Part shown: in pieces, positions 29,556 to 50,364 of the stretch | How positions within the stretch are numbered: the stretch's first letter is position 1 | Layout: the number at the start of each line of letters is the position of its first letter | Source: Algoriphagus vanfongensis DSM 17529 | Lineage (GTDB): Bacteria; Bacteroidota; Bacteroidia; Cytophagales; Cyclobacteriaceae | Length of the DNA stretch: 64,000 nucleotides | Direction: 5' to 3' | Assembly (NCBI RefSeq): GCF_000429465.1 | Contig: NZ_AUBX01000010.1 | Location: 1 to 64,000, forward strand | Program-made: the position numbers and the translations under genes | Notes under the pieces: model-generated | Told to the model about the DNA's origin: nothing | Seen by the model: only the letters and a program-made list of their open reading frames with translations | The model's database searches: none

Positions 29556-29888
29556 TTTTCTTAAAATCACATTAGAATTACACATACTACCAAATCACTT
29601 AGCCTTCCTCGAGAAAATCACCAGTTCTTCTTTTGGAATACAAGAAAGTCTGTGAGGTTGTCTAATTCCAGAAAAGAAAAATCGATTTTTTATTATTGAC
29701 TGGCTCATTGATATAGCCAAAACTCCAACTACATTTCAAATCCACCTATCGAAACAGAAAGCACTAAAACCAATTGCTTCTTGATGTATCATCTCCATTT
29801 TGGATACAATTGATAATAAAAGCTTAAAACAGATTCTGAGTTTCCAAGGGTTCTTTTCAAATACATTTGTTTGTTTTCGTCCCCCTTC
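29556..29888. other. Intergenic region with a promoter element before the ECF sigma gene
   Basis: About 330 bp without coding potential. TACATTTG at 29862-29869 is an exact TAnnTTTG -7 element placed 19 bp before the sigma-factor ATG. No clear -33 TTG is found at the expected distance, so this is only a candidate promoter. Confidence 0.4.
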
Positions 29889-30413: not shown

Positions 30414-30507
30414 TCCCTGTTACCAAACCGTTATTCAAGTACATTTTTATTTCACTTTTTGTTAATCCGCTGAAGCAGTAAAAGCTCGTCACTTTGGGGA
30501 CTTATCT

Positions 30508-31488
30508 ATGAAACCCCATGGTATGAATTCCAGAAATCAACTCGTAAAATCAATCAAAAATCTTCTGAGAGGACTCGCTCATCCAGAGGAAATCAAAAAA
30601 ATCAACTCCTGGCATGACAATCAAGCCGAAGTATCCCCTGCTACTGCAGGCATATCTGAGAAGAGAGCAAAGCTAAAAGAAAAGGAACTGCTAGTTCAGA
30701 TAAAGGAAAAAGCTGGATTCAAAAAGGAACCCAAATCATCTCTGTACGCCAACTGGAAAATAGCAGCAAGTATCATCCTTTTCTTGTCATTAGGTTCCTT
30801 ATATTATCTCCAGCTACTACCTCAACCCGAATCTCCTGCTACTGAAAAGTGGATCACTTTCGAAAATGAAACCGGAATGATCAAAAAAATCAAGCTCTCT
30901 GACGGATCCTTGGTTTCACTTTATCACCGCACCAAAATTCAGCTCGCTGAGAATTTCTCAACAAACCGTACGCTCCTCTTGGACGGACAGGCATTTTTTG
31001 AAGTAGAAAAAGACAGTCTTCATCCATTCACCGTCAAAACAGCCCAATTAGAGACCCGAGTGTTGGGAACCTCTTTTCTGATAGACACTCAGTCTGAAGG
31101 CACTGAAAGCGTCTATGTCAAAACAGGATTTGTAAAAGTCAGCAAAGGTGAAGGGATCTCTGCTCACATTCAGCCCAATGAAAAAGCATACATAGACCCT
31201 GAAGGCAAGTTAAATCAGGCGATCATCACAAAACCGGAAGAAACTTTTGCCTGGACGGAAAACAAGCTTGTCTTCAAATCTGCCAGCATGCAGATATTGG
31301 TCAGTCAGTTGGAAAACTGGTACGGAGTGACAATTGAAGTCCAAAATCAAACAAGCCCATGCAAAATCTCTGGAATCTATGAAGCATTAAGCTTAGAAAA
31401 CACATTGGAAGTCATCTCCTATTCCATTCCAATTCACTATCAAATCCATGAAAAAAATGTAAGTATCCAATTCCCAAATTGTCTCTAA
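30508..31488 (+). CDS. FecR-family anti-sigma factor
   Basis: A 326-residue membrane protein: a cytoplasmic N-terminus (1-80), one transmembrane helix (about 84-103, WKIAASIILFLSLGSLYYL), a periplasmic FecR domain (about 110-215; IKLSDGSLVSLYHRTKIQL, LLDGQAFFEVEKD, VKTAQLETRVLGTSF) and a C-terminal DUF4974 domain (about 255-326). It holds the adjacent ECF sigma factor inactive and receives the signal from the STN domain of the downstream SusC. The gap to the sigma gene is 94 bp. Confidence 0.92.
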   Translation: MKPHGMNSRNQLVKSIKNLLRGLAHPEEIKKINSWHDNQAEVSPATAGISEKRAKLKEKELLVQIKEKAGFKKEPKSSLYANWKIAASIILFLSLGSLYYLQLLPQPESPATEKWITFENETGMIKKIKLSDGSLVSLYHRTKIQLAENFSTNRTLLLDGQAFFEVEKDSLHPFTVKTAQLETRVLGTSFLIDTQSEGTESVYVKTGFVKVSKGEGISAHIQPNEKAYIDPEGKLNQAIITKPEETFAWTENKLVFKSASMQILVSQLENWYGVTIEVQNQTSPCKISGIYEALSLENTLEVISYSIPIHYQIHEKNVSIQFPNCL

Positions 31489-31495
31489 CAAAAAA

Positions 31496-31515
31496 GGGTC
31501 TGCTGCAACAGACCC
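31496..31515. terminator. Hairpin between fecR and susC
   Basis: GGGTCTG (31496-31502) pairs with CAGACCC (31509-31515), 7 nt after the FecR stop. On the plus strand it is preceded by an A tract but not followed by T residues, so read-through is likely. On the minus strand it is a proper stem plus TTTTTT. It could be a partial attenuator or an antisense terminator. Confidence 0.45.
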
Positions 31516-31571
31516 TCATAGTTCAAGCAATTCCTATCGCAAAACAAGTTTTACCAGAACAATTCAAAATT

Positions 31572-34500: not shown

Positions 34501-35057
34501 AATATATCGGAAATGCCTATGCGGACTGGAAAGGTGGATTTAGAAATGAATTCCTATATAAGAATTTCAGATTGGGGATTTTGTTTGATGGCCAATATGG
34601 AGGGATTGTATATTCCCAAACACACCATAAAATGTCAGAGCAAGGCAAGCTAAAACACACCTTGATGGGCAGAGAGGATGGATATATCATCGGGGATGGA
34701 GTGATACTCAATGCTGACGGCACCTACTCTCCAAATACTACGGAAGTAGCCCTTCCCTCCTACTATGCAGACTATTATAGAAGAGCCAATGTAGAGTCCA
34801 ATTCGTTCGACGCATCCTTTATCAAGCTGAGAGAGCTATCTATTGAATACAACATTCCCGCTAGTATACTCCAAAAGTCTGCTATCCGCAGGGCCTCCAT
34901 ATCTCTATATGGAAGAGATCTCGCCATGTGGACTAAGTTTCCAATGTTTGACCCGGAAACAGCCGCACTAAACGGAGGCAGTCTACTACCAGGAGTGGAA
35001 ATCGGACAGTTACCGACTCCTCGTTCTTTCGGAGCAAATTTGACTCTTCAATTCTAA
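31572..35057 (+). CDS. SusC/RagA TonB-linked outer-membrane receptor with STN domain
   Basis: An outer-membrane receptor of 1161 residues from ATG 31572. A signal peptide (about 1-35, LFLVLLLGSFLQSMVWA) is followed by an STN domain (about 45-110) that signals to FecR, a carboxypeptidase-like beta-sandwich (about 120-205, ITGTVTDAETGETLPGVNI), a plug (about 215-330) with the ISVLKGASATALYGSRAANG SusC signature, and a 22-strand barrel ending in a C-terminal Phe (NLTLQF). It imports oligosaccharides or peptides with SusD in a TonB-dependent way. It is preceded by sigma and FecR and followed by SusD after 12 nt. Confidence 0.94.
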   Translation: MKKKLPPPFKKLAMRLFLVLLLGSFLQSMVWAESSHAQKLEDSKVQLATRELSLNSTFKQIQNQTPFRFSFQSDLDLSQRITLSAKDMDLLSLLQEVSNQSGLSFKQVNNSIAIAKTPGKNEVVSLDEKVKITGTVTDAETGETLPGVNIIIEGKNQGTTTDLQGNFTLMVDVGEKLVFSYVGYDSQVVTIANQTELNIQLAYDSEVLGEVLVTALGIKREEKALGYATQKVESEQLVEARPNNWSDALRGKVAGLNILSSGSGPLNSSQISLRGDNSLNPNGNFALIVLDGVPMNSGLTSSGVSSAYGAGSGNDVPVDFGNGIADINPNDIESISVLKGASATALYGSRAANGALIITTKSGKRREKGLGVTINSNVNFNDILQWPDSQYEYGQGTGRAFNADGDLYYSYGASEDGASTGGTSSAFGPRFDGQYYYQYDPELEGQSLDRELWRPYENNVKDFWRTGHTWTNSVSLEGSHENGSVRASLTHTKNEWIMPNTGFERTVAALSVAQNINSKLRLNAKVNYTNKNSDNLPATGYNNQSISYFMIFQNPSIDLDWYRPIWKKGLENVEQVHPFSSFIDNPFLIAYEMTNSVNNNSFLGNISATYTFDEHFELMLRSGLTMSQEERAIQRPFSSANYQRGYYKEQDISNYESNTDFLFTYKGKLSDKINLSASAGGNQMIRKYRAISAEVEGLVIPGVFKLSNGINNPAVATNDNNRIINSLYALASFDYDEKIFVDITGRNDWSSTLPEQNNSFFYPAISTSFVLSDIWNLPTPISFAKARLSAAQVGNDTEPYRTSKYYGQSDFPGSASVPTTLYNVDFKPEITTSYEAGLEMIFFNRRLGFDLTYYHTETKNQILEVPVEISTGFSRAILNAGLVQNKGVELVINGSPIKTKDFQWNSFITWAKNTNEVISLPDELDGSQTIGTGGTASIIAKVGGTTGDIYGFGFVRSPEGEIVYGSNGLPARPDEIQYIGNAYADWKGGFRNEFLYKNFRLGILFDGQYGGIVYSQTHHKMSEQGKLKHTLMGREDGYIIGDGVILNADGTYSPNTTEVALPSYYADYYRRANVESNSFDASFIKLRELSIEYNIPASILQKSAIRRASISLYGRDLAMWTKFPMFDPETAALNGGSLLPGVEIGQLPTPRSFGANLTLQF

Positions 35058-35069
35058 CATTCAGAAATC

Positions 35070-36503
35070 ATGAAAAAATCAATCATATATACTTTCCTCT
35101 TGGTGATCATTTTTGGATCTGCGTGTACTGAGGATTTTCAGGAAGTCAACACCGACCCCAACAGAATAGATCAAATCAGTCCCGGTACGCTATTAAATCC
35201 TACGATTTACGGAATGTTCAGCTTTGGGACTGATCGTGCCGATGCTTTTACCTTCCAGGTCATGCAAGTGGCACTTCCTTTTCCGAGTCCCAATGGTGGC
35301 TTGCATCGCTATGATGTCAGCGAATCTGCAGGGAATAGCACCTGGAGTACCTATTATAGATGGTTAGTCAATCTCAAGGAAATGGAAGATGCAAGTATCG
35401 AAGCATCCGCTACAAACTACCAGGCAATAGCCTTAACACTCAAAGCATATGCGCTCAGCCAATTGACCGATAGCTTTGGAGATATTCCTATGGATGAAGC
35501 GAGCCGAGGAGAAGATGGGATATTCCAACCCAAATTTAATACGCAAGAAGAGGTATATACACAGATCTTCAGTGATTTGGAAAAGGCAAATACACTCTAC
35601 GATCCGACTATGGCAATGGTGTATGGAGAAGATATCCTGTTTCAAAATGACGTTGAAAAATGGCAAAAATTCACCAATTCACTTCACTTAAGACTATTGT
35701 TGCGAGTTTCCAAGCGCTCTGAAATGAATGCTGATCAGAAGATGGCAGCCATTCTATCCAATGCAGATCAATATCCTGTTTTTGAAAATACAGCTGAATC
35801 TGCAATTTTGGACATAACTGGAGTGACACCCAACCTTTCTCCATGGGGAAGAGCAATTGATTTTACCACCTTCCGGTCAATTTCTGAATTTTTTGTAAAT
35901 CAGCTCAATGAACTCAACGACCCCAGAAGAAGCACCTTTATGACCCAAGCGAGAGATCTAGACGGCGTGACAACACTTGGGTACAAAGGAGTCCCGAGTG
36001 GCTATGCCGGTGCCGAGACACAGTTTCAGTTTATCCCAAGCAATCACAACATTGCCTTGGTACAGGCACCGATGATTTCATTGGTTCTGACCTATGCAGA
36101 GGTAGAATTTATCAAAGCAGAGCTGGCAGCGAAAGGAGTGATTTCATCGGATGCTCAGCTTCATTATGAAAATGGTGTGAAAGCTGCGATGGAACAATGG
36201 GATGTAGCAATCACGGAGGATTATTTCAACAATGAATCAGCTAAATTCAATGGTAGTTTGGAGCAAATTTACCTGCAGAAATACTTAGCTCTGTACTTCA
36301 ATGACTACCAACAATGGTATGAATATAGACGAACCGGCTTCCCAATTCTTCCAAAAAATGAAGGAATGGAAAACAACCAGCAGGTTCCGGTGAGATTTAG
36401 ATATCCTGTATCTGTTATGATCAATAATCCGGACAATTACCAAGAAGCAATCGCTCGAATGGGAGCAGATGATATCAATACACAAGTATGGTGGGAAAAA
36501 TAA
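35070..36503 (+). CDS. SusD/RagB-family outer-membrane lipoprotein
   Basis: A 477-residue lipoprotein (lipobox FGSAC, Cys 19). It has the SusD-like TPR helices: ATNYQAIALTLKAYALSQLTDSFGDIPMDEA and the ILTYAEVEFIKAEL-type C-terminal helix. The short version resembles the SusD_RagB class 2 (SusD-like_2) group. It caps the SusC barrel made from the gene 12 nt upstream and binds the transported ligand at the cell surface. The ligand is unknown because the only nearby enzyme is a DUF4038 protein on the opposite strand. Confidence 0.92.
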   Translation: MKKSIIYTFLLVIIFGSACTEDFQEVNTDPNRIDQISPGTLLNPTIYGMFSFGTDRADAFTFQVMQVALPFPSPNGGLHRYDVSESAGNSTWSTYYRWLVNLKEMEDASIEASATNYQAIALTLKAYALSQLTDSFGDIPMDEASRGEDGIFQPKFNTQEEVYTQIFSDLEKANTLYDPTMAMVYGEDILFQNDVEKWQKFTNSLHLRLLLRVSKRSEMNADQKMAAILSNADQYPVFENTAESAILDITGVTPNLSPWGRAIDFTTFRSISEFFVNQLNELNDPRRSTFMTQARDLDGVTTLGYKGVPSGYAGAETQFQFIPSNHNIALVQAPMISLVLTYAEVEFIKAELAAKGVISSDAQLHYENGVKAAMEQWDVAITEDYFNNESAKFNGSLEQIYLQKYLALYFNDYQQWYEYRRTGFPILPKNEGMENNQQVPVRFRYPVSVMINNPDNYQEAIARMGADDINTQVWWEK

Positions 36504-36519
36504 CCCATCCTCAAAATCT

Positions 36520-36551
36520 AAAAAGGAGACCAAGTAGTTGGTCTCCTTTTT
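36520..36551. terminator. Terminator of the sigma/FecR/SusCD operon
   Basis: AAAAAGGAGACCAA and TTGGTCTCCTTTTT pair perfectly around a 4-nt loop, 17 bp after the SusD stop, with further T residues. It is symmetrical and can also serve the convergent DUF4038 gene. Confidence 0.9.
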
Positions 36552-36630
36552 TTATAAACCTATCTTACAAACTGTGATCAACCTTATAAACATTCTGGAA
36601 AATGGGTTCCTAGGGAAGCTCTTCACAGTG

Positions 36631-38004
36631 TCACTGATCCATCGAGCTAAAATCAACTGGAAGATTTTCATCAGATAGAATCAATAGAAAATCACTCCCC
36701 TTACCACTAGCCCAAGGTTTGAACTCCTGAGCTTTGTCCGTCTCAAATTTGCCAATAAACTTCACTGCTCCACTTCTGGGATTAAACCAATAAGCATTTA
36801 ACCTATCAGCGACCATCTTTTGCAAATCAATGGTAAATGGTTTTCCAACAGGCGTATATGCGATGACTATCTTCTTTTCAGAATCAATTGAGCTAAGAAT
36901 GTAAGACTCGTCCTCCAGATTAGTATTCCTAACTAAACTCTGATTGAGTTTCATTTTTTGCCAAGGCAGTTTCTCAAACAGGTGCCTCATATAGCCCATC
37001 TGTGCGGACCCCGGTAGATCAAGTGCGGCTTGCCAGCCAGTTCTCGCATTGATGACAGGTATTCTGCTCACATCATACATTTGCCAGATATCATTGCAGC
37101 CATAGGTATACCCTGCCGCTCCAGCTATCATAGTCCAATAGGCCGAAACTCTGACATCGCTATCATCCAGCCATCCATAAGCCTTCTCTTCCCAAAATCT
37201 ATCCGGAATATTTTCATATCTCGCTTCTCCATTGATTACCGGCCGTTTGATTGGTAGCATTTTACTCTCGCTCACATAAGCATATTCCTTTGTAGTACTG
37301 CTATGACCGCTCTGAAACATATCAAAATCAAGCCATTCCTCATTGATGAAATCCGTTGCCTTTTTTGCTCCCACTGGGTGAAAACTGATCAAATGCCTTT
37401 TGTCAACGTCCCGAATCCCCGTCGCCATTCCATGAATCACTCCAAAATGGCTATCTGTTTCCAATGCTCTATCACCACCTAAAATCCATATGAGATTGTT
37501 CGTATTCAGATATCTTTCAGCCAGAAGCTTTCCATAGTCTCTTGCATTTTCCTTTTGAAAAATCTCTGGTCCAACACCCCATTTTTTATTGAATTTATCA
37601 CCCCATGTTGGCAATAGTGCTACATAGAGTCCCAGCTCATTTGCTTTCTGCAAAACATAGTCCACCAGCGTGAAATATTGCTCATTCAATTTATTTGGGT
37701 CGTTGTCGACAAGAGGCCTTTCTCCATAAGCATTCGGGGAATTCAAACCGTCAAGTTCAGCCAAAACCACCGTTTGAATCACAGTGAAACCCTTATTTGC
37801 TCTATCAGTCAAATATTCATCAATTTGATGCTTGTCCAAGCGATGAATCAATTCCCACGCTGTATCCCCAAGCCAAAAAAATGGCTGATCATCTCCTGTC
37901 ACGAGGTAGCTGCTGTCTTTGCTGATTTTCAGCAATGCCAAATCTTGTCCAAAAGCCATCTGGCACATCAGAAAGAGGACAAAAATCACTAGTAATTTTC
38001 TCAT
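36631..38004 (-). CDS. DUF4038-domain glycoside hydrolase-like protein (apiosidase/GH140-like)
   Basis: A 457-residue secreted protein from ATG 38004 with a signal peptide (MRKLLVIFVLFLMCQMAFGQ). A (beta/alpha)8-type DUF4038 domain covers about 30-365 (PFFWLGDTAWELIHRL, YVALLPTWGDKFNKKWG, NLIWILGGDR, VINGEARYE). A small C-terminal beta domain (about 370-455) resembles the putative collagen-binding domain of collagenase. The family includes GH140 apiosidases, and related proteins act on pectic side chains. Substrate assignment here is not possible. It is convergent with the SusCD operon and may provide its enzyme. Confidence 0.82.
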   Translation of the reverse strand: MRKLLVIFVLFLMCQMAFGQDLALLKISKDSSYLVTGDDQPFFWLGDTAWELIHRLDKHQIDEYLTDRANKGFTVIQTVVLAELDGLNSPNAYGERPLVDNDPNKLNEQYFTLVDYVLQKANELGLYVALLPTWGDKFNKKWGVGPEIFQKENARDYGKLLAERYLNTNNLIWILGGDRALETDSHFGVIHGMATGIRDVDKRHLISFHPVGAKKATDFINEEWLDFDMFQSGHSSTTKEYAYVSESKMLPIKRPVINGEARYENIPDRFWEEKAYGWLDDSDVRVSAYWTMIAGAAGYTYGCNDIWQMYDVSRIPVINARTGWQAALDLPGSAQMGYMRHLFEKLPWQKMKLNQSLVRNTNLEDESYILSSIDSEKKIVIAYTPVGKPFTIDLQKMVADRLNAYWFNPRSGAVKFIGKFETDKAQEFKPWASGKGSDFLLILSDENLPVDFSSMDQ

Positions 38005-38081
38005 GGATACTATGAAGTAAGGATATAAAAGCCTGATTTGGAACGAGGATTGGATCAAATTATTTGCTATGCTAAGGATAC

Positions 38082-38705: not shown

Positions 38706-40589
38706 ATGAGCAGAAAGCTTTCCATTATAGTGCTTTTCCTGCTTTTTGCACCTATCGCCATTGTCTCTGCCCAGCGGATATCAGGCTCTTCCACCTTTCG
38801 GATTGAAGATGATCTGGAAGAAAGAATCTTTGCCATTGATCAGTTGGAGTTTTTTGAGGACACGAGTAATCTTCTGGAATTTGAAGATATCATCCGCCCC
38901 TCTTTTCAGGGTAATTTCAAAATTCGACCTGATTTTGACAAAAGTAATTTTGACATCGAGCATACTTACTGGGTCAAATTATCCATCGATAATGATCCTT
39001 TGAGCACTAGGAAGTGGCTGATCGAATTTTATGATCAAAGTATCGATATCCTGACCGCTTATTCTCCTGATAGGGATGGGCACTATCATGAAACCTTCTT
39101 TGGCGACGCACTCCCGTTCGAGGTCCGCTCTATCAAACACAAAAATTTTGAAATTGTGATCGCCAATGAAACAGAAGGGATCTCCAATTACTATTTCAAA
39201 ATCAGATCTTCCCAAAAAGCAGATATCCGGATTGCCGTAAGATCGATCAATCGATTCGTGCATTATGCACTCAGCGAATACTTTGCGTATGGGATATTTT
39301 ATGGGATGATTCTGATCATAGGTCTCTATAATCTTCTGATCTACTCCGCCATCCGCGAGATCAAATACCTCTATTATACATTTTATCTAGCGAGTGTGGG
39401 AATCTATGCGATGTGCGTGGATGGGATCGCATTTCAATATCTCTGGCCTGATCAGCCCGGATTAAACCAAGTGGCAAATGGAGTGTTCAGTTACTCAATT
39501 GTCCTGTGGGCGATTCTCTTTTCTATCAAATTCCTCAATACCAAAAACCGCTCTTATACGATACATGTGATCCTTTTGGGGATGTTGGTTCTGAAAACCA
39601 TCCTATTTCTCGGAGGCTTGACCAAAGACCCCAAACTTCTCGAAATCAAGTTTTACGACATTATCCCCTTCTTTTTCATCTTTGCCGCCAGCATTCATAT
39701 CTGGAGCAAAGGCTACAAGGTCGCCCGTTTTTTTGTAATTGCCTATGGGGTATTGTTTCTAGGAGTGACGATCAAAACCCTCGTCAATTCGGCCATTATC
39801 CCCCATCAGACGCTCTTGTATTACAGCCTCCACATAGCTTTTTTACTAGAAATGCTGCTGCTGACTTTCGCACTTGCAGATCGTGTCAGGATCCTCAAGG
39901 ACAACCGGGACAGGGCTTTCCAGCGAACTATACGGCAGATGGAGACCAATGCAGAACTAAAAGAAAAAGTAAATCGCGAACTCGAAAACAAAGTGAGTGA
40001 AAGAACTCGGGAGCTCTCCGAAAAAAATCAGTTGTTGGAGGATTTTGCAAAGCAAGTCAGTGAGAGAGATGAAGAGATCAAGCGAATCAATTCACTTTTG
40101 GATAAGGATAACTACAAGCTAAAAAGTAGTATCCGAGAATCTTTTCAAGCACGATTGAATAATAAATTGCTGACTTTCGAAGAGTTCAGAAAAATATTCC
40201 CAGATCAATCTGCTTGTCTGAGATATCTCGAGGAGGTCAAGTGGTCCGGTGGCTTTGAATGCCGACAGTGTGGCAACACCAAAAGTTCCAAAGGACCTAA
40301 AACCTTCACCAGAAGGTGTAGCAAATGCGGGCATATAGATTCTGTGACAGCAGGCACTATTTTTCATGGTGTCAAATTCCCTTTGGAAAAGGCATTTTAC
40401 ATCGCATACAATCTCATCACCTCACATGAAAAGCAAACTCTGAATCAACTGGCAGAGCTACTAGATCTTAGAAAAAATACTGTCTGGACCTTTCGCAAAA
40501 AACTAAGTCAGAACCTAGCAGATTCTGGAATCAGCCAACCAACCTGGAATGATTTGTGGGTCCTGCATGAACCATCGAGAATCGATTAA
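38706..40589 (+). CDS. 7TM-DISM membrane sensor fused to an IS1595-type transposase zinc ribbon/HTH
   Basis: A 627-residue protein from ATG 38706 (MSRKLSIIVLFLLFAPIAIVSAQ signal). The domains are a periplasmic 7TMR-DISMED2-type sensor (about 30-180, HTYWVKLSID), seven transmembrane helices (about 190-395), a coiled coil (about 395-485) and a C-terminal module (about 488-605). That module matches the N-terminal part of IS1595-family transposases: FEEFRKIFPDQSACLRYLEE, then a CRQC...CSKC ribbon (Cys 519, 522, 538, 541), SVTAGTIFHGVKFPL and a helix-turn-helix (LAELLDLRKNTVWTFRKKL). The transposase DDE domain is absent. 7TM-DISM proteins sense carbohydrates or similar ligands and normally end in kinase or cyclase domains. 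I infer a membrane-tethered transcription factor for the GH144/SusCD locus 290 bp downstream. Confidence 0.85.
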   Translation: MSRKLSIIVLFLLFAPIAIVSAQRISGSSTFRIEDDLEERIFAIDQLEFFEDTSNLLEFEDIIRPSFQGNFKIRPDFDKSNFDIEHTYWVKLSIDNDPLSTRKWLIEFYDQSIDILTAYSPDRDGHYHETFFGDALPFEVRSIKHKNFEIVIANETEGISNYYFKIRSSQKADIRIAVRSINRFVHYALSEYFAYGIFYGMILIIGLYNLLIYSAIREIKYLYYTFYLASVGIYAMCVDGIAFQYLWPDQPGLNQVANGVFSYSIVLWAILFSIKFLNTKNRSYTIHVILLGMLVLKTILFLGGLTKDPKLLEIKFYDIIPFFFIFAASIHIWSKGYKVARFFVIAYGVLFLGVTIKTLVNSAIIPHQTLLYYSLHIAFLLEMLLLTFALADRVRILKDNRDRAFQRTIRQMETNAELKEKVNRELENKVSERTRELSEKNQLLEDFAKQVSERDEEIKRINSLLDKDNYKLKSSIRESFQARLNNKLLTFEEFRKIFPDQSACLRYLEEVKWSGGFECRQCGNTKSSKGPKTFTRRCSKCGHIDSVTAGTIFHGVKFPLEKAFYIAYNLITSHEKQTLNQLAELLDLRKNTVWTFRKKLSQNLADSGISQPTWNDLWVLHEPSRID

Positions 40590-40879
40590 TCTCGCTTCAT
40601 TCAGGCGTTAATACGATGAAAATCGAGCATTTTTTTGCATTAGTATTCAAAGGGGACAAAGATGAAAAAATATGGCCCCATTTAATCATAGGTCAGATTT
40701 TTACTGAGATTAAACTGGAACAAACTCCTTAAATTTTGTTAATAGAATTAGGTAGATTTTCACTTTAAAATTAAAACTACCATCACAAGATTTTTTAGTC
40801 TTTCTACCTTCATATTGGGTATCTCGGACAAGCCGGCATACTATCACAATTCTTTAGTTAAACCCAAAATTCCTTTCGT

Positions 40880-43800
40880 ATGAAGATGCCTTTACTTGAA
40901 AGTAAGGAGGCATGGAAGTACCAGACATTGAGTCTGGGAAAATTATCCATGATTATGGCTCTGCTGCTATGGGCCGCTACGCTTCCAGCATTTGCCCAAT
41001 CTGTTCCCATCACCGGGACGATTGTGGATCCGACTGGCTTTCCCCTTCCCGGAGTCACCGTACTCGAAAAGGGCACCAGCAACGGAACTATCACTGACAT
41101 CGATGGTCAATACACCATCAGTGTCTCTTCTACTGAGTCGACTCTGGTATTCTCATTTGTCGGATATGAAACTCAGGAAATTCTCATCGGAAATCAGACT
41201 ACCATCGATTTGACACTCGCAGAAGCCATCGGCTCTCTAGACGAAGTGCTGGTCATCGGATATGGTACACAAAAGGAAAAAGATCTGACTTCGGCCATCT
41301 CCACGATCAAAACCGAGGACATTACCAAGACTCCCACACCTAATGCAATGCAATCTCTGCAAGGACGAGTAGCAGGTGTGCAGATCGTAAGTAACGGAGC
41401 GCCAGGTTCTTCTCCGACTGTGAGAGTGAGAGGCGTGGGATCATTCGAGGGAAATGCCGCTCCACTCTACGTGGTAGACGGGATGTTTTTTGACAATATA
41501 GACTTCCTCAATCCCAATGACATCGAAAACATTTCCGTACTGAAAGACGCCTCTGCATCAGCTATTTATGGTGTAAGAGCTTCCAACGGGGTGATCTTGG
41601 TCACCACCAAGTCTGGCTCTTATGAGCAGGCGCCGGAGGTAGTGTATGATGGCTATTATGGTGTCCAGGTCCCACAGAATGTTTTGAAAATGGCAAACAC
41701 GCAGCAGTTTGCTCAATATATCCGTGAAACCGGCTCCGCGCCTGACATAGCATTTTTGGAAAATGCCATCCAGCGTTACGGCAGAAGCCGTGTGGACCCA
41801 ACCATCCCAGACGTCAATACTGACTGGTACTCTGAAATCATGAGTCCTGCATCGATTCAAAATCATAGCCTTACATTCAATGGAGGATCTGCCAAAACCA
41901 GATATTCCATCGGTGGTAGCTTTTTTGACCAGCAAGGATTACAGAAGGAGATCAGAAATGAATACAAACGAATCAATCTTAGGGCAAAAATCGATACCGA
42001 TGTCAAAGATTGGCTGACTGTAGGTGGTAACTTCAATTTCTCAGTCGCAAGACAGTATGTCGGTGAAGATGCGGCTTGGTTTAGAGCCTATTTCGCAGTA
42101 CCGACTATCCCGGTTTACGATGAAATGAATACAGCTGCTAATCCTCTGAATCTATCCAATGCGCAGCAATTAGGCTACAGAAGTAGTCAAAACCCTTTCT
42201 ACCCGCTGATGTACACTGATAATAGAAACAATGTGGCTAAGGTGACGGGGAATTTCTATGCAGACATGAATTTGATTCCGGACAGATTGGATTTCAGAAC
42301 TTCCTACAATTACAGCCTATACCAGCTCAATTCCAGAAATGTGAATTTTGCCTACAACGACGGCATTACCGAATCTCAATCTGCCTTGAGAAGACAGAGT
42401 GAATCTGGTTTCAATCAGATCATTGACAACTATTTCACTTATACTAATATCTGGGGTGATCACATGCTGACGGTCACTGCTGGCCAGTCTTTCAGAAGTG
42501 AATATGCTGAAGTGCTTTTTGCACGGGGAACAGGACTCAGCCCTAATCCTACTTGGGAAAATGAGCAATACTGGTACCTTTCCAATTCTCAAAATTTTGA
42601 CTTGGACGGCATAGGAGATGCCAATGGAAACACCATCAATTCCAACCTTTACTACTTGTCATTCTTTGGAAGAGTAGCTTATAACTTTGATGAAAGATAC
42701 CTTCTCTACGGTACTTACCGTCGGGATGGCAATAACAAGTTTCAGCAAAAATGGGGGGACTTCTTCACCATTGGCGGTGGATGGGTGATCACTGAAGAAG
42801 ACTTCTTTGGGGTAGATGCCATCAACTTTTTGAAACTTAGAGCTTCATGGGGGCAACTGGGAAATGATGGAATCAGGCCTTCGATCGGCGCTCCTTCCCT
42901 AGAAGAATCCAACACTGCACTGGGAGATGTCCGCTACATCGGTCGAGTATTGAACCCGACCTATGACCTCATCGACAAATGGGAAACTACCGTCGAGAAA
43001 AACTTTGGAATCAATGCCAAACTATTGGAAAATAGACTCTCTATAGACGCTGATTATTTTATCCGAGACACCAAAAATCTGGCTGTTAGCATCATTCCTC
43101 CGGTATTCCGATCGACTGAAAGACGAAGTGTCGGTGAAATCAGAAATCAAGGTCTTGAATTGAATATCACTTGGGCAGACAATATCACTGAAGATTTCTC
43201 CTACTACATCGGAGGAAATATAGCTACGCTGAAAAACACTGTGCAAAGCCTCGGTGGTCCTGAAGGACTGGATGCAGGGTCGGCTGAATTCAGACAGAGA
43301 TCCATTATCGGCCAGCCTTATCAGGCATTTTTCGGCTATGAAAGCACAGGAGTCTTCCAAAATGAGGAGATGATCACAAACAGCGGCTATACAGCTGAAT
43401 TTATCGCTGAAAACAATCTTGTCCCGGGTGATCTGATGTTCAAAGATCAAAATGGAGATGGCGTCATCAATGATCAGGACCGAGTCGTATTGGGATCTTT
43501 TCTGCCCAAATTGACCTATGGCGCCAACCTTGGGTTTTCATGGAAAGACCTCGAGTTTTCAGCTTTGATTCAAGGTCAGACAGGTCATAAAATCCTCAAC
43601 AGAAAGCGCGGAGAGATCATTTTCACCAATGATACCAATATCGATGCGGATCTAGCAACCAATCTCTGGAGGGGTGAAGGCACTTCGGACAAGTATCCGT
43701 CAGCTGCCGGACTCCGCAAAGGTTGGAATCAAAACTTCAGCACCTACTTCGTAGAGGACGGCTCCTATTTCCGGGTACAAAACGTCCAAGTAGCATATAC

Positions 43801-43975
43801 TCTCAGAAATATACTCGGAGGAAATATCCCGGCGACTCGCATGACTTTCACTGCAGAGCGTCCCTTGACGATATTCAGCTACAATGGCTTCAATCCTGAA
43901 GTTGCCAACGGAATTGACCGCCAGGTTTATCCGATTCCAGCTGTCTACACTTTCGGCCTGAATGTGAAGTTTTAA
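40880..43975 (+). CDS. SusC/RagA TonB-linked outer-membrane receptor
   Basis: A 1031-residue receptor with an extended N-terminus and signal (SMIMALLLWAATLPAFAQ, cleavage at about 40). A carboxypeptidase-like domain (ITGTIVDPTGFPLPGVTV, about 45-120) leads directly to the plug (DEVLVIGYGTQKEKDLTSAI; ISVLKDASASAIYGVRASNG) and the barrel ending in Lys-Phe. There is no STN domain, so it does not signal through a FecR; regulation must come from elsewhere, plausibly the preceding 7TM-DISM protein. It is first gene of the predicted beta-1,2-glucan locus and is followed by SusD after 18 bp. Confidence 0.94.
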   Translation: MKMPLLESKEAWKYQTLSLGKLSMIMALLLWAATLPAFAQSVPITGTIVDPTGFPLPGVTVLEKGTSNGTITDIDGQYTISVSSTESTLVFSFVGYETQEILIGNQTTIDLTLAEAIGSLDEVLVIGYGTQKEKDLTSAISTIKTEDITKTPTPNAMQSLQGRVAGVQIVSNGAPGSSPTVRVRGVGSFEGNAAPLYVVDGMFFDNIDFLNPNDIENISVLKDASASAIYGVRASNGVILVTTKSGSYEQAPEVVYDGYYGVQVPQNVLKMANTQQFAQYIRETGSAPDIAFLENAIQRYGRSRVDPTIPDVNTDWYSEIMSPASIQNHSLTFNGGSAKTRYSIGGSFFDQQGLQKEIRNEYKRINLRAKIDTDVKDWLTVGGNFNFSVARQYVGEDAAWFRAYFAVPTIPVYDEMNTAANPLNLSNAQQLGYRSSQNPFYPLMYTDNRNNVAKVTGNFYADMNLIPDRLDFRTSYNYSLYQLNSRNVNFAYNDGITESQSALRRQSESGFNQIIDNYFTYTNIWGDHMLTVTAGQSFRSEYAEVLFARGTGLSPNPTWENEQYWYLSNSQNFDLDGIGDANGNTINSNLYYLSFFGRVAYNFDERYLLYGTYRRDGNNKFQQKWGDFFTIGGGWVITEEDFFGVDAINFLKLRASWGQLGNDGIRPSIGAPSLEESNTALGDVRYIGRVLNPTYDLIDKWETTVEKNFGINAKLLENRLSIDADYFIRDTKNLAVSIIPPVFRSTERRSVGEIRNQGLELNITWADNITEDFSYYIGGNIATLKNTVQSLGGPEGLDAGSAEFRQRSIIGQPYQAFFGYESTGVFQNEEMITNSGYTAEFIAENNLVPGDLMFKDQNGDGVINDQDRVVLGSFLPKLTYGANLGFSWKDLEFSALIQGQTGHKILNRKRGEIIFTNDTNIDADLATNLWRGEGTSDKYPSAAGLRKGWNQNFSTYFVEDGSYFRVQNVQVAYTLRNILGGNIPATRMTFTAERPLTIFSYNGFNPEVANGIDRQVYPIPAVYTFGLNVKF

Positions 43976-43993: not shown

Positions 43994-45526
43994 ATGAAAA
44001 TTCATCAAAAACTAACGATACTGGGACTAGCCACGGCTTTCATTCTTCCGACAGGCTGTACCGACTTATTGGACGAACCTCTACAGAATGTCCAACGGGT
44101 AGAGGAAACGGACTATACGCAAACTGAAAACATGATGCTCCTCGTCTATGGAGCCTATGCAGAACTGAATGAACTACAGTGGGAAAGCTTCCCTACCATC
44201 TCTGTCAGGGGTGACGATGTCAATCCTGCAGGAGATCAGGAAGCGTTGACTCGAACTGATCTATTCGAATATGACCGCAATTTCTGGCTGTACAATTCTA
44301 CCTGGCTCAATCTCTATTCTGATATCATCTATTGGCATGGAGCGATGGAGGAAATTCTAAAATACCAAGAAGCAGGAGCTGATTTGGCACAAACCAACCA
44401 ATACATCGCTGAATTGAAAGTCATGCGCTCTTTCGAACTTCTCATCTTGGCGAGACTTTGGGAAAACATCCTAATTCCGACGAGTTCTCAGCCTAGAGAT
44501 CTTTACAATGTGGAAGTCTCCAGCTTTGAAGAGGTCATGCAGCATATTTCCGAGCAAATGGACGAGGCCATCCCCAACTTGGCCACCGTCCGTCCCAATC
44601 AACGGACAGATATTCCCGGAGGTATCAGCCGCTATACCGCGCTGGCTGTGAAGGCGATGGCCAATCTGGAGCTAGGCAACTACCAAGCAGTAGCCGATGC
44701 TACCGGAGAGATCATTGCGAATGGTAATTTCGCTTTAATGGATGATTACTATCAGCTTTTCAAAATACCCGGCAAGTTGAGCAATGAAAGCCTGCTGGAA
44801 TTGCAATATTCAGATTATGGCACTGCCACTGGTACGGTCAATAGATACCTATGGGACTTCTTTGGTCCTGCCAGCTGGGCACCTGCAGTCAGTGGAGCTG
44901 GAGGTGGCTGGGGATTCTGGGAACCGTCCAGTACCTATGTGAAATTCATGCTGGATAGAGGAGAAAGAGAACGACTGGAAACCACCGTTTTATTCACTCC
45001 AGATGGGATAGTCGCCATCCAATCTGACCCAGATTATGCGACTTTGCCTTCATGGGTGAGCAATACCTCTCCCGATGGAGATGTATTCAACAACCACCCT
45101 AGGTATAAATTCCTCAGTGGTAAATTTTACTTGCCTTCGAATCAATTGACTGAGGGGAGATTTACTTATGGAGAAAATAAAAACTTCTCCGTGATCCGAT
45201 ATTCTGAAATCCTCCTGATGCATGCGGAAGCATTGACTAGCGGTGCAGCTAGCTCCGTGATGAGCGCAGATGAAGCTGTCAATCTGGTAAGAAGTAGAGC
45301 TGGTATGAACGCCCTTTCCGGAGTGACTCTGGATCAGGTTTTAGATGAAAAATATGCAGAATTCGGTACGGAATGGGGCATCCGGTTTTTTGACTTGGTC
45401 CGCCACGGCAAAACTTCGGCTTTAAGCTATGAAGGAAGGACTTTCTCAGAAAGTGACAGATACCTGCCCTATCCATTGGAGCAGCTGGATATTCTTCCGC
45501 AATTGGCAGAATTCGAAAACCCTTAA
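43994..45526 (+). CDS. SusD/RagB-family outer-membrane lipoprotein
   Basis: A 510-residue lipoprotein (lipobox LPTGC, Cys 22, then TDLLDEP). Typical SusD features are the N-terminal TPR helices (ELKVMRSFELLILARLWENI), the FEEVMQHISEQMDEAI helix and the C-terminal SVIRYSEILLMHAEAL with VRSRAGM and WGIRFFDLVRHG. It forms the lid of the preceding SusC and binds the glycan at the surface. The distance to the next gene is 30 bp. Confidence 0.94.
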   Translation: MKIHQKLTILGLATAFILPTGCTDLLDEPLQNVQRVEETDYTQTENMMLLVYGAYAELNELQWESFPTISVRGDDVNPAGDQEALTRTDLFEYDRNFWLYNSTWLNLYSDIIYWHGAMEEILKYQEAGADLAQTNQYIAELKVMRSFELLILARLWENILIPTSSQPRDLYNVEVSSFEEVMQHISEQMDEAIPNLATVRPNQRTDIPGGISRYTALAVKAMANLELGNYQAVADATGEIIANGNFALMDDYYQLFKIPGKLSNESLLELQYSDYGTATGTVNRYLWDFFGPASWAPAVSGAGGGWGFWEPSSTYVKFMLDRGERERLETTVLFTPDGIVAIQSDPDYATLPSWVSNTSPDGDVFNNHPRYKFLSGKFYLPSNQLTEGRFTYGENKNFSVIRYSEILLMHAEALTSGAASSVMSADEAVNLVRSRAGMNALSGVTLDQVLDEKYAEFGTEWGIRFFDLVRHGKTSALSYEGRTFSESDRYLPYPLEQLDILPQLAEFENP

Positions 45527-45556: not shown

Positions 45557-46651
45557 ATGAAATTCAACAGCAAGTACATTGTTGCAGGACTACTGGCAGT
45601 CAGCTTTGCCTGCAAGGATAGCTACATAGATGATATTGAACCCGTGGCCGCTGGTACGGATGAGGCAGCACCAGTTATTTCAGTGGATTTCCCTTCAGAG
45701 GGCACCATGATACGAGTGACTGAAGATATCACCTCCATCGATATCAAATTCTCGGTTTCAGATGACATCGAAATCGGAGATATCAAAGTACAAATGGACG
45801 GGACTGAGATAGGTTCTTACTCAGACTTTAGAGATTATAGAAATGCTATCATTACCCTGCCTTATGAAACCTTGGGTAATGGAGAGCATACTTTGAGCAT
45901 CACTGCAACTGACCTTTCTGGTAAAAACAGTTCTGAATCCATTGCTTTCCAAAAAGCAGAACCTTACCAACCTGTTTATGAGGGCGAGGTATTTTATGCT
46001 CCATTTGATGGTGAAAACCTGGAACTGATCACTCTTACAGAAGCAGAAGTCACAGGAGCACCTGGATTCACGACAGACCGTGTCGCGGGCACCAATGCCT
46101 ATGCAGGAGCAACTGGAGCCTATTTGACATTCCCTACCACTGGTCTACTCAATGAGGAATTCAGTGCTGCCTTCTGGTACAAAATCAACGCAAATCCAGA
46201 TCGGGCAGGAATCATGGTAATCGGACCTCCAGATGAAGCAAATCCATCTGCCCAAAATAATCGGGTTTCAGGTTTCCGTCTTTTCAGAGAAGGGTCTGCG
46301 ACCCGCCAGGTTTTCAAACTCAACGTAGGAAATGGCACTGCAGATTCCTGGTTTGACGGAGGAGATGACGCAGCTATCGATCCTACTGTCAACAATGGTT
46401 GGGTTCATATTGCCTTTACCATTTCCAATACCGAAGCGGTAGTCTATATCAATGGGGCAGTAGCCAAACAAGGTGAATTTTCGGGTGTAGACTGGTCTGG
46501 ATGCGATATACTATCCATTATGTCCGGAGCTCCTAGGTTTTCAGGTTGGAACCACCTTTCCGACCAGAGCTACATGGATGAATTGAGGATTTTCAACAAG
46601 GCACTCAGCCAAGAAGAAATCGTCACAATCATGGCAGAAGAACAACCTTAA
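45557..46651 (+). CDS. LamG-domain surface lipoprotein (candidate glycan-binding protein)
   Basis: A 364-residue lipoprotein (lipobox VSFAC, Cys 19). An Ig-like domain at about 35-130 (PVISVDFPSEGTMIRVTEDI) precedes a concanavalin/LamG jellyroll (about 145-360: FSAAFWYKINA, NNGWVHIAFTISNTEAVVYI, SYMDELRIFNKALS). In Bacteroidota loci the lipoprotein after SusD is usually a surface glycan-binding protein that helps capture the polysaccharide. No catalytic residues are apparent. The locus continues with two GH144 enzymes, so the predicted ligand is beta-1,2-glucan. Confidence 0.82.
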   Translation: MKFNSKYIVAGLLAVSFACKDSYIDDIEPVAAGTDEAAPVISVDFPSEGTMIRVTEDITSIDIKFSVSDDIEIGDIKVQMDGTEIGSYSDFRDYRNAIITLPYETLGNGEHTLSITATDLSGKNSSESIAFQKAEPYQPVYEGEVFYAPFDGENLELITLTEAEVTGAPGFTTDRVAGTNAYAGATGAYLTFPTTGLLNEEFSAAFWYKINANPDRAGIMVIGPPDEANPSAQNNRVSGFRLFREGSATRQVFKLNVGNGTADSWFDGGDDAAIDPTVNNGWVHIAFTISNTEAVVYINGAVAKQGEFSGVDWSGCDILSIMSGAPRFSGWNHLSDQSYMDELRIFNKALSQEEIVTIMAEEQP

Positions 46652-46736: not shown

Positions 46737-48689
46737 ATGAAACAACTATTTCTCCTGCTGGGTATTTTTCTGCTGCTTATTTCTTGCAGAGAAGAGGAAA
46801 GCCCAGACCTCATGCTTTTGGAAGCTAAAGTAGGCTCATTGGTGATCCCTCTTGATGGTTCGGTAGTAGAAAATGTACCGCTTGACAGAACGATCAGCTT
46901 AAATTTTTCAGAAAATCTGGATCCATCCAGCGTCAATGGTTCGATACTTCTCACTGCAAATGGGCAGGCTATTTCCAGCAACTTGAACCTTGCTTCTCCC
47001 AAAACTCTTACCGTTCAGGCTTTGGGTGGTTTTCTCAGCGGTCAAGTTCATCAACTGGAAATTAAGAGCACCCTACAAACCACTGCCGGAAAGTCATACA
47101 TGGGTAAGATACTTTCATTTTCCACCCAAGCTGGTGATTTGACTGTAGAATCCTTCAATTTCGAAGGAGCAGAAAAGCTCCCGAATGGAAGAATCCAAAA
47201 CGTCTCATTAGACCTTGACGCCCAAATCAAATTCAACTTTGCACTAGATCCAAGCACAATCGAATCCGCCATCCTCTTAGCTGGACCAGAGGCTTCCTCC
47301 CTTGCTTTTGAGCTATCCACTGATGGTAAACTATTGAAACTGAATTCCACGGAGCCTTTGTTGGATCTCTACCCATTTGAGCTTTCCTTGGCTAATACCT
47401 TAAAAGGAGCCAATGGAGAGACGTTTTCTGGTTGGCAGCAGGAGTTTTATACTGTCGTAGATCCCACTCCCAAATTTCCCATGATTTCAGACGAGGAGCT
47501 TTTGACCACAGTTCAGGAGCACACTTTTCGCTATTTCTGGGACTTTGCCCATCCTAGTAGTGGCATGGCACGAGAGCGATATACTTCAGGCAATACCGTG
47601 ACCACAGGAGGAAGTGGATTTGGTCTTATGGCCCTCATCGTCGGAGTAGAACGAGGGTTCATCAGTAGAACACAAGCAGTCGAGCGCTGGACCAAAGTGA
47701 TCAGCTTCTTGGAGACTGCCGACCGCTTTCACGGAGCATGGCCTCATTGGCTACATGGAGAGACGGGCACGACTATCCCATTCAGCACCAAGGATAATGG
47801 AGGAGATTTGGTAGAAACTGCACTTTTGGTCCAAGGGCTACTGACTGTCCAGCAATATCTCAATCCTGCTGAAGTGGCTGAAAAGCAACTCATCGATCAA
47901 ATAACAAAACTGTGGCATGATGTCGAGTGGGACTGGTATACCAAAAATGATAGTGGCGTACTCTACTGGCATTGGTCACCGGACTACACGTGGGAAATGA
48001 ACCTCCCCATAAGTGGATACAATGAATCTCTCATCGTCTATGTCTTAGCTGCTAGCTCCCCCACCCATTCTATCTCAAAAACCACCTATGAAGAAGGATG
48101 GGCGCGAAATGGAGCCATTCAAAACGGATCTAGTTTTTATGGAGAGCTGCTACCTCTGGGAGACGATTATGGTGGTCCACTGTTCTTCTCCCACTACTCT
48201 TTCCTAGGGCTTGACCCAAGAAATCTCCAAGATCAATATGCTGACTATTGGGAGCAAAACGTGCAGCACAGCCTGATCAACCAAGCGCATGCTGAAGCCA
48301 ATCCCAAGAGTTTTATAGCCTATTCGGAGGAAAATTGGGGTTTTACTGCTAGTGACAATCCTACGGGCTATAGTGCCCACTCTCCTACCAATGATTTAGG
48401 CGTGATCACTCCAAGTGCGGCAATGTCTTCTTTTCCATACACTCCTAACCAATCCATGAAGGCATTGAAGTTTTTCTATTATTCATTGGGTGAGCGTATC
48501 TGGGGAGAATATGGATTCCACGATGCATTTAATATCACAGAAAACTGGTACGCAGATTCCTATCTCGCCATCGATCAAGGGCCGATTATCATCATGCTAG
48601 AAAATCACCGAACCGGGAAAATCTGGGATCTTTTCATGCAACAACCTGAGGTACTATCCGGTCTGGATAAGCTTGGGTTCTCATACTAA
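46737..48689 (+). CDS. GH144 family lipoprotein with N-terminal Ig-like domains (predicted endo-beta-1,2-glucanase)
   Basis: A 650-residue lipoprotein (lipobox LLISC, Cys 16). Two Big_5-like Ig domains (about 35-240) precede an (alpha/alpha)6 barrel of the glucoamylase-like family now in GH144 (about 250-645). Visible family blocks are TFRYFWDFAHPSSGMARER, TTGGSGFGLMALIVGVERG, ADRFHGAWPHWLHGETG, DNGGDLVETALL and AIDQGPIIIMLENHRTGKIW. Characterised GH144 enzymes release sophorose oligomers from beta-1,2-glucan. The lipid anchor suggests surface or periplasmic action. The next gene is a close paralogue. Confidence 0.88.
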   Translation: MKQLFLLLGIFLLLISCREEESPDLMLLEAKVGSLVIPLDGSVVENVPLDRTISLNFSENLDPSSVNGSILLTANGQAISSNLNLASPKTLTVQALGGFLSGQVHQLEIKSTLQTTAGKSYMGKILSFSTQAGDLTVESFNFEGAEKLPNGRIQNVSLDLDAQIKFNFALDPSTIESAILLAGPEASSLAFELSTDGKLLKLNSTEPLLDLYPFELSLANTLKGANGETFSGWQQEFYTVVDPTPKFPMISDEELLTTVQEHTFRYFWDFAHPSSGMARERYTSGNTVTTGGSGFGLMALIVGVERGFISRTQAVERWTKVISFLETADRFHGAWPHWLHGETGTTIPFSTKDNGGDLVETALLVQGLLTVQQYLNPAEVAEKQLIDQITKLWHDVEWDWYTKNDSGVLYWHWSPDYTWEMNLPISGYNESLIVYVLAASSPTHSISKTTYEEGWARNGAIQNGSSFYGELLPLGDDYGGPLFFSHYSFLGLDPRNLQDQYADYWEQNVQHSLINQAHAEANPKSFIAYSEENWGFTASDNPTGYSAHSPTNDLGVITPSAAMSSFPYTPNQSMKALKFFYYSLGERIWGEYGFHDAFNITENWYADSYLAIDQGPIIIMLENHRTGKIWDLFMQQPEVLSGLDKLGFSY

Positions 48690-48777
48690 ATGGAAAATTC
48701 TCAAGCTATCCTCCTGAAAAATTTATGTTTCATCGCTGCAGTTTCAGCTTATCACCGAACTATAAACTTTGAATATT

Positions 48778-50364
48778 ATGAAAACATATTTGAAACTATC
48801 TATTAGCTACTGCTTCTTAGCTCTCATGGGCTCGGGCTGCGGAACCAAGGAGCCATCGGAGCCAAGTCCTGTGATAGCCAAAGGCTACGATCGACATGTG
48901 GAGCTACATTGGCCAAAGCAAACCGGAGTCTCCACCTATGAGATTTGGGTGAGTACCGAAAACAATAAGTTTGCGAAAAGAGCCACTGTTCAAGACACGA
49001 TCTACATGGATTTTGTCAATGACTTGGGTAAAAACCTAAACCTGAAATACAAGGTGGTCGGAATAGACGAAACAGGTGGCTCTCAAGACCTAGGGACAAG
49101 CCCAGCTACTACTCGGGACTTTTCGGATGAGGAGTTAATCAATATGGTCGAGTATTATACTTTTAGATATTTCTATCAAGGTGCCGAAACTAATTCGGGT
49201 ATGGCCCCAGAGCGAATACATATCGACGGAGACTATCCTCAAAATGATCAACATGTAGTCACCACAGGTGGTACAGGGTTCGGGATATTCGGACTTTTGG
49301 CAGGAATAGATCGCGGCTGGATCACTCGACAGGAAGGCGCAGATCATTTCGAAAAGATGGTCAATTTTCTCGAAAAAGCAGATCGATTCCATGGAGTATG
49401 GCCGCACTGGCTGGATGGTCAGACAGGAAAAGTAAAGCCTTTTGGCACGAATGACAACGGAGGAGATTTGGTAGAATCTGCCTTCCTGATGCAGGGCCTA
49501 TTGGCTGTAAGAGAATATTACAAAGATGGTTCAGAGCAGGAAAGGAGTATAGCCTCCAAGATCGATCAACTCTGGAAAGAAATGGAATGGGACTGGTACA
49601 CGCAAGGCGGGCAAGAGGTGCTCTATTGGCATTGGTCACCAGACAAGGAATGGGTGATGAATTTTGCATTGGAAGGTTACAATGAGTGCCTGATCACCTA
49701 TATTCTTGCAGCATCCTCCCCTACCCACACGATATCGCCGGATGTCTATCACAAGGGGTGGGCGAGAAATGGTGGAATCAATACGGACATCAAAGCTTTT
49801 GGATATCCCCTAAAACTCAAGCATAATGGTTCGGAAGCCATGGGAGGACCGCTGTTTTGGTCTCACTATTCTTATTTAGGACTCAATCCCAAAGGCCTAA
49901 AAGACCGCTATGCAGATTACTGGCAAGAAAACACAAATCATACGCTGATCAACCGAGCCTGGTGCATTGCCAACAAAGAGGAGCACAAAGGGTATGGTGA
50001 AGATCTCTGGGGACTCACTGCCAGCTATTCTGTCAATGGCTACTCAGCCCATCGTCCGGGAGAAGATCTTGGGGTCATCTCCCCCACAGCGGCCCTTTCA
50101 TCCATGCCATATACACCTGAGGAAAGCCTAAAAGTGCTCAAAAATCTCTACTATAATTATGGAGAAAAAGTATTTGGTAGATATGGCTTCTACGACGCCA
50201 TGAGTCCGGAAGCCAACTACTATCCTAAGAGATACCTAGCCATCGACCAAGGTCCCATCGTCGCCATGATCGAAAATCATAGAACAGGATTAGGCTGGGA
50301 ACTATTCATGGGAGCTCAGGAGATCCAAGATGGACTGGCCAAATTAGATTTTCGGGTAGACTGA
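48778..50364 (+). CDS. GH144 family lipoprotein, second copy (predicted endo-beta-1,2-glucanase)
   Basis: A 528-residue lipoprotein from ATG 48778 (lipobox MGSGC, Cys 21). An N-terminal fibronectin III-like domain (about 35-110, VELHWPKQTGVSTYEIWVS) replaces the Ig domains of its neighbour. The GH144 barrel (about 115-525) retains TFRYFYQGAETNSGMAPER, VTTGGTGFGIFGLLAGIDRG, ADRFHGVWPHWLDGQTG, DNGGDLVESAFLMQG and AIDQGPIVAMIENHRTGLGW. The two genes probably arose by tandem duplication with exchange of the accessory domain, and may split the work on long and short glucans or between cell compartments. Confidence 0.88.
   Translation: MKTYLKLSISYCFLALMGSGCGTKEPSEPSPVIAKGYDRHVELHWPKQTGVSTYEIWVSTENNKFAKRATVQDTIYMDFVNDLGKNLNLKYKVVGIDETGGSQDLGTSPATTRDFSDEELINMVEYYTFRYFYQGAETNSGMAPERIHIDGDYPQNDQHVVTTGGTGFGIFGLLAGIDRGWITRQEGADHFEKMVNFLEKADRFHGVWPHWLDGQTGKVKPFGTNDNGGDLVESAFLMQGLLAVREYYKDGSEQERSIASKIDQLWKEMEWDWYTQGGQEVLYWHWSPDKEWVMNFALEGYNECLITYILAASSPTHTISPDVYHKGWARNGGINTDIKAFGYPLKLKHNGSEAMGGPLFWSHYSYLGLNPKGLKDRYADYWQENTNHTLINRAWCIANKEEHKGYGEDLWGLTASYSVNGYSAHRPGEDLGVISPTAALSSMPYTPEESLKVLKNLYYNYGEKVFGRYGFYDAMSPEANYYPKRYLAIDQGPIVAMIENHRTGLGWELFMGAQEIQDGLAKLDFRVD

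Follow-up and report, generated by a model that had tools for sequence, protein, structure and literature searches.

A 7TM-DISM membrane sensor with a transposase-type DNA-binding module is a candidate regulator of the adjacent SusCD/GH144 locus

A membrane sensor whose C-terminus is a predicted DNA-binding module of transposase type is encoded directly upstream of a SusCD/GH144 locus in the window, by which we mean the whole 64,000-nucleotide stretch of DNA analysed here. We put at about 80% the probability that this protein is a membrane-bound one-component regulator whose IS1595-derived module acts on paired repeats and activates the susCD-GH144 operon. DNA binding, activation, dimerisation and the ligand are what we infer in this reading; the architecture, the adjacency, the paired motif and the association of the motif with the sensor are read from the sequences themselves. 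That a membrane sensor with a transposase-type output might regulate the SusCD/GH144 locus was the original prediction, and it is supported by the conserved adjacency of the two, by the motif pair in the gap between them, and by paralogs beside other glycoside hydrolase genes.

Domain organization of the sensor and known 7TM-DISM outputs

The gene is one unbroken frame, with the coordinates first given for it (Table 1). Its DISMED2, 7TM, and Zn_ribbon_IS1595 domains all scored above the Pfam cut-offs. The zinc ribbon, with cysteines C519, C522, C538, and C541, had an E-value of 8e-8 in the whole protein and 1e-8 when the C-terminal fragment was searched alone, so a significant match to transposase zinc ribbons, on which the earlier interpretation depended, was obtained. 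The helix-turn-helix (HTH) was matched by the NCBIfam IS1595 transposase model NF033547 through no more than its positions 2-53 of 215; the E-value was 2e-5 with the whole protein and 3e-6 with the fragment, and both scores were under the model's curated one. Since two transposases scanned alongside the sensor match positions 2-214 of the same model, the sensor lacks the DDE domain, as had been proposed in the initial description of a signal peptide, a 7TM-DISM sensor, a coiled coil, and an IS1595 zinc ribbon and HTH; its stop codon lies 21 residues past the HTH match. Pfam detected no kinase, cyclase, phosphatase, or other output domain in the protein, and its putative output is the predicted DNA-binding module. 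Judged from domain order, at the level of sequence and model, sensor and DNA-binding output thus lie within one membrane protein. No other PF12760 match was found in the window's genome at an E-value of 0.001.

Table 1. Features of the sensor gene, the gap downstream of it, and the SusCD/GH144 locus (window positions)
Feature	Position	Strand	Basis
Putative membrane sensor-regulator gene	38706..40589	+	Single open frame, 627 aa
Signal peptide or first membrane helix, residues 1-26	38706..38783	+	Sequence; model helix 2-26
7TMR-DISMED2 extracytoplasmic domain, residues 46-178	38841..39239	+	Pfam PF07696, E 9e-24
7TM domain, residues 191-393	39276..39884	+	Pfam 7TMR-DISM_7TM PF07695, E 6e-44
Helix from last membrane helix to DNA-binding module, cytoplasmic part	39885..40163	+	AlphaFold2 model
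IS1595-type zinc ribbon, residues 499-543	40200..40334	+	Pfam Zn_ribbon_IS1595 (PF12760)
IS1595-type helix-turn-helix, residues 556-606	40371..40523	+	NCBIfam NF033547; helices in models
Candidate operator repeat R1, TAGTATTCAAAGGGGACA	40641..40658	+	Motif model
Candidate operator repeat R2, TGAGATTAAACTGGAACA, 64 bp from R1	40705..40722	+	Motif model
Possible Bacteroidota -7 element TACCTTCA, weak	40805..40812	+	
SusC-like TonB-dependent transporter, proposed target	40880..43975	+	
SusD-like protein	43994..45526	+	
Big_7 + Laminin_G_3 protein	45557..46651	+	
GH144-type enzyme (PF10091)	46737..48689	+	5gzh endo-beta-1,2-glucanase, E 9e-157
GH144-type enzyme (PF10091)	48769..50364	+	5gzh endo-beta-1,2-glucanase, E 6e-190

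An AlphaFold2 model of the sensor, built with a 27-row alignment (mean pLDDT 82.8), has a beta-rich domain at about residues 30-180 followed by the 7TM helices. A single continuous helix (residues 374-486) then runs towards the DNA-binding module, with pLDDT below 50 at residues 455-475. Coiled signalling helices that join sensors to outputs, occasionally to HTH domains, have been described (PMC1592074). The extracytoplasmic domain resembled the RetS periplasmic domain 3jyb (Foldseek E 1.3e-4, TM 0.70 by target length); human WLS, ranked first by Foldseek over a longer span, was a poor match (E 2e-5, TM about 0.2). Modelled alone, the DNA-binding module reached a pLDDT of 89.2, and the PDB held no convincing relative of it (best E 0.19).

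The extracytoplasmic and 7TM domains of the sensor (PF07696 and PF07695) are those of 7TMR-DISM receptors. Nine other 7TM-DISM proteins that we scanned end in a SpoIIE phosphatase (seven proteins), a histidine kinase (one, the window genome's own second copy), or a guanylate cyclase (one), whereas the C-terminus of the sensor is a zinc ribbon and HTH of transposase type. The premise that 7TM-DISM outputs are kinases, cyclases, or phosphatases is incomplete, since 7TMR-DISM is among the architectures reported to end in a ChiS-family DNA-binding domain (PMC8092284). ChiS-family proteins, like the sensor, carry their DNA-binding domain at the C-terminus of a sensor protein; in PMC8092284, this domain is a cryptic HTH variant reported from proteobacteria, and the word transposase is absent from the main text. 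The sensor's module is accounted for by PF12760 and NF033547. IS1595-family transposases, which match these two models, have the zinc ribbon and HTH in common with the sensor but carry a DDE domain; in the sensor the module sits at the C-terminus and no DDE domain accompanies it. A DNA-binding end of the ChiS type is therefore known for 7TM-DISM proteins, and what appears to be new is the transposase-derived output, for which no example was found in the open-licence literature searched. In Bacteroidota, polysaccharide-use loci have inner-membrane regulators of the SusR type and hybrid two-component systems, whose DNA-binding end lies in the cytoplasm; they differ from the sensor in both their sensor and their DNA-binding families.

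Conservation of the sensor and its gene neighbourhood

Distribution of the sensor was analysed in several genome sets. A set of 98 genomes, the window's included, contained full-length orthologs in 11 other genomes of the same genus (57-80% identity) and full-length relatives in other families of the order (about 23-39% identity). Among 60 genomes of the genus, 12 carried the sensor, again counting the window's. For named genomes, search patterns were taken from the sensor part rather than the DNA-binding module, and the best 80 of 387 related stretches were kept. The top four of these 80 were from Algoriphagus (Cyclobacteriaceae), and the same architecture recurred from Algoriphagus to Fulvivirga, Roseivirga, and Marivirga. 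As far as sequence comparison tells, the near relatives of the sensor are in Algoriphagus and other Cytophagales. The architecture survey called for at the outset thus describes a conserved family, not a single case.

The four zinc cysteines were invariant in all 27 aligned full-length rows, the window's included, down to 23% identity, and were present in all of the best 80 named-genome relatives. Together with the 11 genus orthologs, the invariant cysteines in the 27 rows indicate that the sensor is not a recent insertion or an assembly artefact. A chance fusion or assembly artefact would not be expected to recur in so many named genomes, and we regard that explanation as refuted by the genus orthologs, the 27-row alignment, and the named-genome relatives. 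It is also very improbable that the C-terminal module has no role in DNA binding and is just what decay left of a transposase, with output signals passing by another route. The module has no clear solved relative and is recognised by sequence only, which leaves some room for that explanation; retention of all four cysteines in both comparisons, and the failure of Pfam to find any other output domain, speak against it.

The genes downstream of the sensor are conserved as well. All 12 genus loci have susC, susD, and GH144 genes downstream on the same strand, with susC directly after the sensor gene; in nine of the 11 loci other than the window's, SusC and SusD are about 35% and 25% identical, respectively, to those of the window. 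GH144 is a beta-1,2-glucanase family (PMC12102758). Named-genome loci were counted where at least 700 bp of downstream sequence was available (79 loci from the best 80 of 387 relatives). The next gene was susC in 69 of the 79, with a median gap of 262 bp. In loci L103, L104, L164, and L166, susC lies 0.3-4 kb downstream, in L168 it is divergent, and in L151 a GH144-like frame is next to the sensor. GH144 was likewise found in 69 of the 79 loci, being missing from six with only 2.2-5.2 kb of downstream sequence and from L117, L122, L124, and L129, where neither susC nor GH144 accompanies the sensor in the available stretch. The sensors of these last four loci may be orphan regulators or have other targets.

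Among the matches listed for the 60 genus genomes, a long form of GH144 (aligned from query residue 16 or earlier) occurred in exactly the 12 sensor carriers. In five sensor-less genomes of the genus chosen from these matches (L274-L278), GH144 was present in a shorter form, and about 7-8 kb around it contained no frame resembling the SusC or SusD of the window.

The SusCD/GH144 locus had been noted to lack a sigma/FecR pair, and the one at 29871-31488 lies ahead of another SusC/SusD pair. A scan of seven genes between 50.6 and 61.1 kb recognised no regulator. Positions 29871-38058 of the window form a glycan locus of their own, which has genes for an ECF sigma factor, FecR, and SusC/SusD-like proteins and is adjoined by a convergent gene for an apiosidase-like enzyme.

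Paired repeats upstream of susC

Expectation maximisation (EM) on 71 sensor-susC gaps yielded an 18-bp motif, TGtTaTTnAAgcGtgAaA, with a log-likelihood of 391.5, compared with 61.5 in one shuffled set. Although repeat spacing was not part of the training, 60 of 70 gaps had their best pair within 18-200 bp spaced 63-66 bp, while shuffled gaps had it at 63-67 bp in 58 of 1,400 cases, and a motif-free self-comparison of the gaps also peaked at lags of 64-65 bp. Pairs above 12 bits spaced 62-67 bp apart were present in 64 of the 71 gaps (63 of those at 64-66 bp); these gap statistics overstate significance, because related genomes are not independent. The two copies are direct repeats with closely similar consensus. 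When entire loci were scanned, the top pair at 63-67 bp fell inside the gap in 69 of 70, a count that includes training data.

Held-out models succeeded in part. With the window's group left out of the training, the gap pair still ranked first among the 63-67-bp pairs of the 64-kb window on both strands, at only 6.1 bits. Across groups, the top pair of a held-out locus lay in the gap in 16/26 and 27/45 loci, and the free best spacing was 63-67 bp in 11/26 and 28/45. A pattern merged from R1 and R2 had no match in the 4.7-Mb genome beyond its own two sources. Outside the held-out test the window pair scored 20.0 bits, its own R1 being low at 6.9 bits. Chance pairs reached 14.6 bits in five sensor-less control loci and 18.2 bits inside a gene of L043, scores not far below that of the window pair.

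Sensor and susC are confounded, as both are common to most loci, and the paired motif might thus be a promoter or leader element of susC that serves another factor, with the sensor working by some other mechanism. We consider this quite unlikely. Had the pair belonged to susC genes as such, comparable pairs would be expected elsewhere in the same genome, but the best pair upstream of 26 other SusC-like genes scored 7.6 bits (27 upstream stretches, taken from 29 loci out of the 75 matches). Loci left out of the training, moreover, separate the two genes. The top pair adjoined the sensor in six of ten such loci, and in L103, L104, and L166 it directly followed the sensor gene with other genes intervening before susC; in L151 it preceded the GH144-like frame. 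These four pairs precede a gene other than susC, and a single copy of the motif also occurs in the gap of a paralog beside a GH81 gene (below). L143, likewise outside the training, had a pair of 35.3 bits before susC, and no pair above 8.3 bits was found in the available stretch of L117, L122, L124, or L129. L152 and L164 belong to the training set, and the best pair of L152 lies elsewhere in its locus.

Our preferred reading, in which the repeats are operators for activation of susC by the sensor, presumes that these sites stand upstream of the promoter. In 64 gaps the start of R2 is 68-242 bp ahead of the susC start codon, a position compatible with activation without proving it. A promoter and terminator scan of the sensor-susC gap gave nothing useful, and four sensors have no susC neighbour (L117, L122, L124, and L129). 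Both observations would suit a protein that binds the repeats as a repressor, or that mainly regulates itself, instead of activating susC. That alternative seems unlikely, since the pair stands between the sensor gene and its proposed target, and since in the sole divergent case, L168 (outside the training), it is on the minus strand, which is the strand of susC. The distance from R2 to susC also mostly leaves room for a promoter downstream of the repeats, which argues against that alternative. Activation by the sensor therefore remains the reading that we favour.

The weak candidate element TACCTTCA was assigned by the Bacteroidota -7 consensus, and a fixed -7 promoter element was rejected because it had no consistent position across loci. 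In L099, a stem-loop with a T tract, resembling an intrinsic terminator for the sensor gene, was seen by eye between R1 and R2.

Paralogs, origin of the module, and proposed mechanism

Distant paralogs of the sensor adjoin other genes: GH9 (L044, divergent), GH3 with SusCD (L049), GH81 (L051, divergent), GH64 with a GH5 domain (L054, divergent), and a pfkB kinase gene (L050). Two further paralog neighbours, of 1511 and 411 aa, had no Pfam match. The motif was sought in 16 paralog gaps with single-base shuffles as controls. The divergent gap of the GH81 paralog held one copy, TGTTTTTTAAGTGATAAA, at 16.2 bits, a score reached in 0 of 300 shuffles. Single sites with p about 0.01 were found in the gaps of L055 and L058, which share a genus code and so are not independent. 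The remaining 13 of the 16 gaps had no motif at p of 0.01 or below; L049 gave p 0.037, and the other 12 were negative. Direct repeats resembling TTTAAGTGAT and exactly 80 bp apart were observed beside the pfkB gene (L050:10798-11058) and beside SusCD (L053:10885-11202), the two loci encoding paralogous sensors of one genome; their single-lag p-values were 0.013 and 0.009, and other lags were as good.

A phylum-wide search with the module matched 59 of 395 genomes at 1e-6. Among the matches listed, 11 were in frames of 620-718 aa with the zinc ribbon near the C-terminal end, and all had E-values of 4e-49 or less. The next match, in genome G256, had an E-value of 5e-48, and it and the remaining listed matches were of transposase length or shorter (at most 368 aa). 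Frame length, not E-value, thus divides the two kinds of frame among these matches. Among the matches listed, the transposase-like N-termini closest to the sensor module were also in G256, where the highest score against the sensor profile was 164 bits. An unrooted tree was built from 42 sensor modules together with 28 other rows; in it, the sensor modules grouped apart from 27 transposase or transposase-fragment rows with support of 97/95, and the only non-sensor row within their group was a stand-alone zinc-ribbon/HTH frame of 137 aa (L076:1194-1607). Label counting on the tree gave two changes, with one change in 14% of bootstrap trees. A single capture of an IS1595 module is the simplest reading of this tree.

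G256 also encodes ten divergent IS1595-like genes (L174-L183; 294-332 aa) with apparently altered catalytic motifs: VDExxxGG was found in none of the ten, and seven have TTGW or TNGW where TDxW is expected. Their ends share an inverted motif, with TTAGGC in 13 of 20 ends, and these genes, which belong to the transposase-like N-termini nearest to the sensor module among the listed matches, are possibly non-autonomous or domesticated. Descent of the operator from transposon ends was considered and not established. The ends of three IS1595 elements whose inverted repeats are clear (L185, L079, and L267) gave p-values of 0.14-0.23 against the operator matrix. Ends of the ten-copy family gave p 0.0007 when seven of the 20 were chosen for TTAGGCG, but significance was lost (p 0.05-0.30) with motifs taken from all 20 ends without choice.

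As a mechanism, we propose that DISMED2 senses a sugar outside the cell, most likely an oligosaccharide cut from beta-1,2-glucan by the GH144 enzymes. These enzymes alone point to beta-1,2-glucan or sophorose as the presumed ligand. The 7TM part and the long helix would carry the signal to the C-terminal zinc-ribbon/HTH module, which, presumably as a dimer or a pair of dimers, would bind the two direct repeats, which are spaced 64-66 bp, ahead of susC. The anatomy of the protein suggests that the signal may reposition paired modules on sites about six helical turns apart, and the bound module would then switch on the susCD-GH144 operon.

We further consider it reasonably probable that one capture of an IS1595 module by a 7TM-DISM receptor founded a Cytophagales regulator family, which radiated over beta-1,2-glucan, cellulose, and beta-1,3-glucan and uses paired same-face operators about six turns apart. 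Transposase capture is known for vertebrate transcription factors, and the Cytophagales family would be a bacterial counterpart. Thanks to the two repeats, a single DNA fragment and a single purified domain would suffice for a direct test of the regulator hypothesis. If correct, it would extend the outputs of 7TM-DISM receptors by a new class and bring a new family of regulators to polysaccharide use in Bacteroidota. It would also be a clear example from bacteria of how the DNA-binding module of a transposase became a regulator that responds to a signal.
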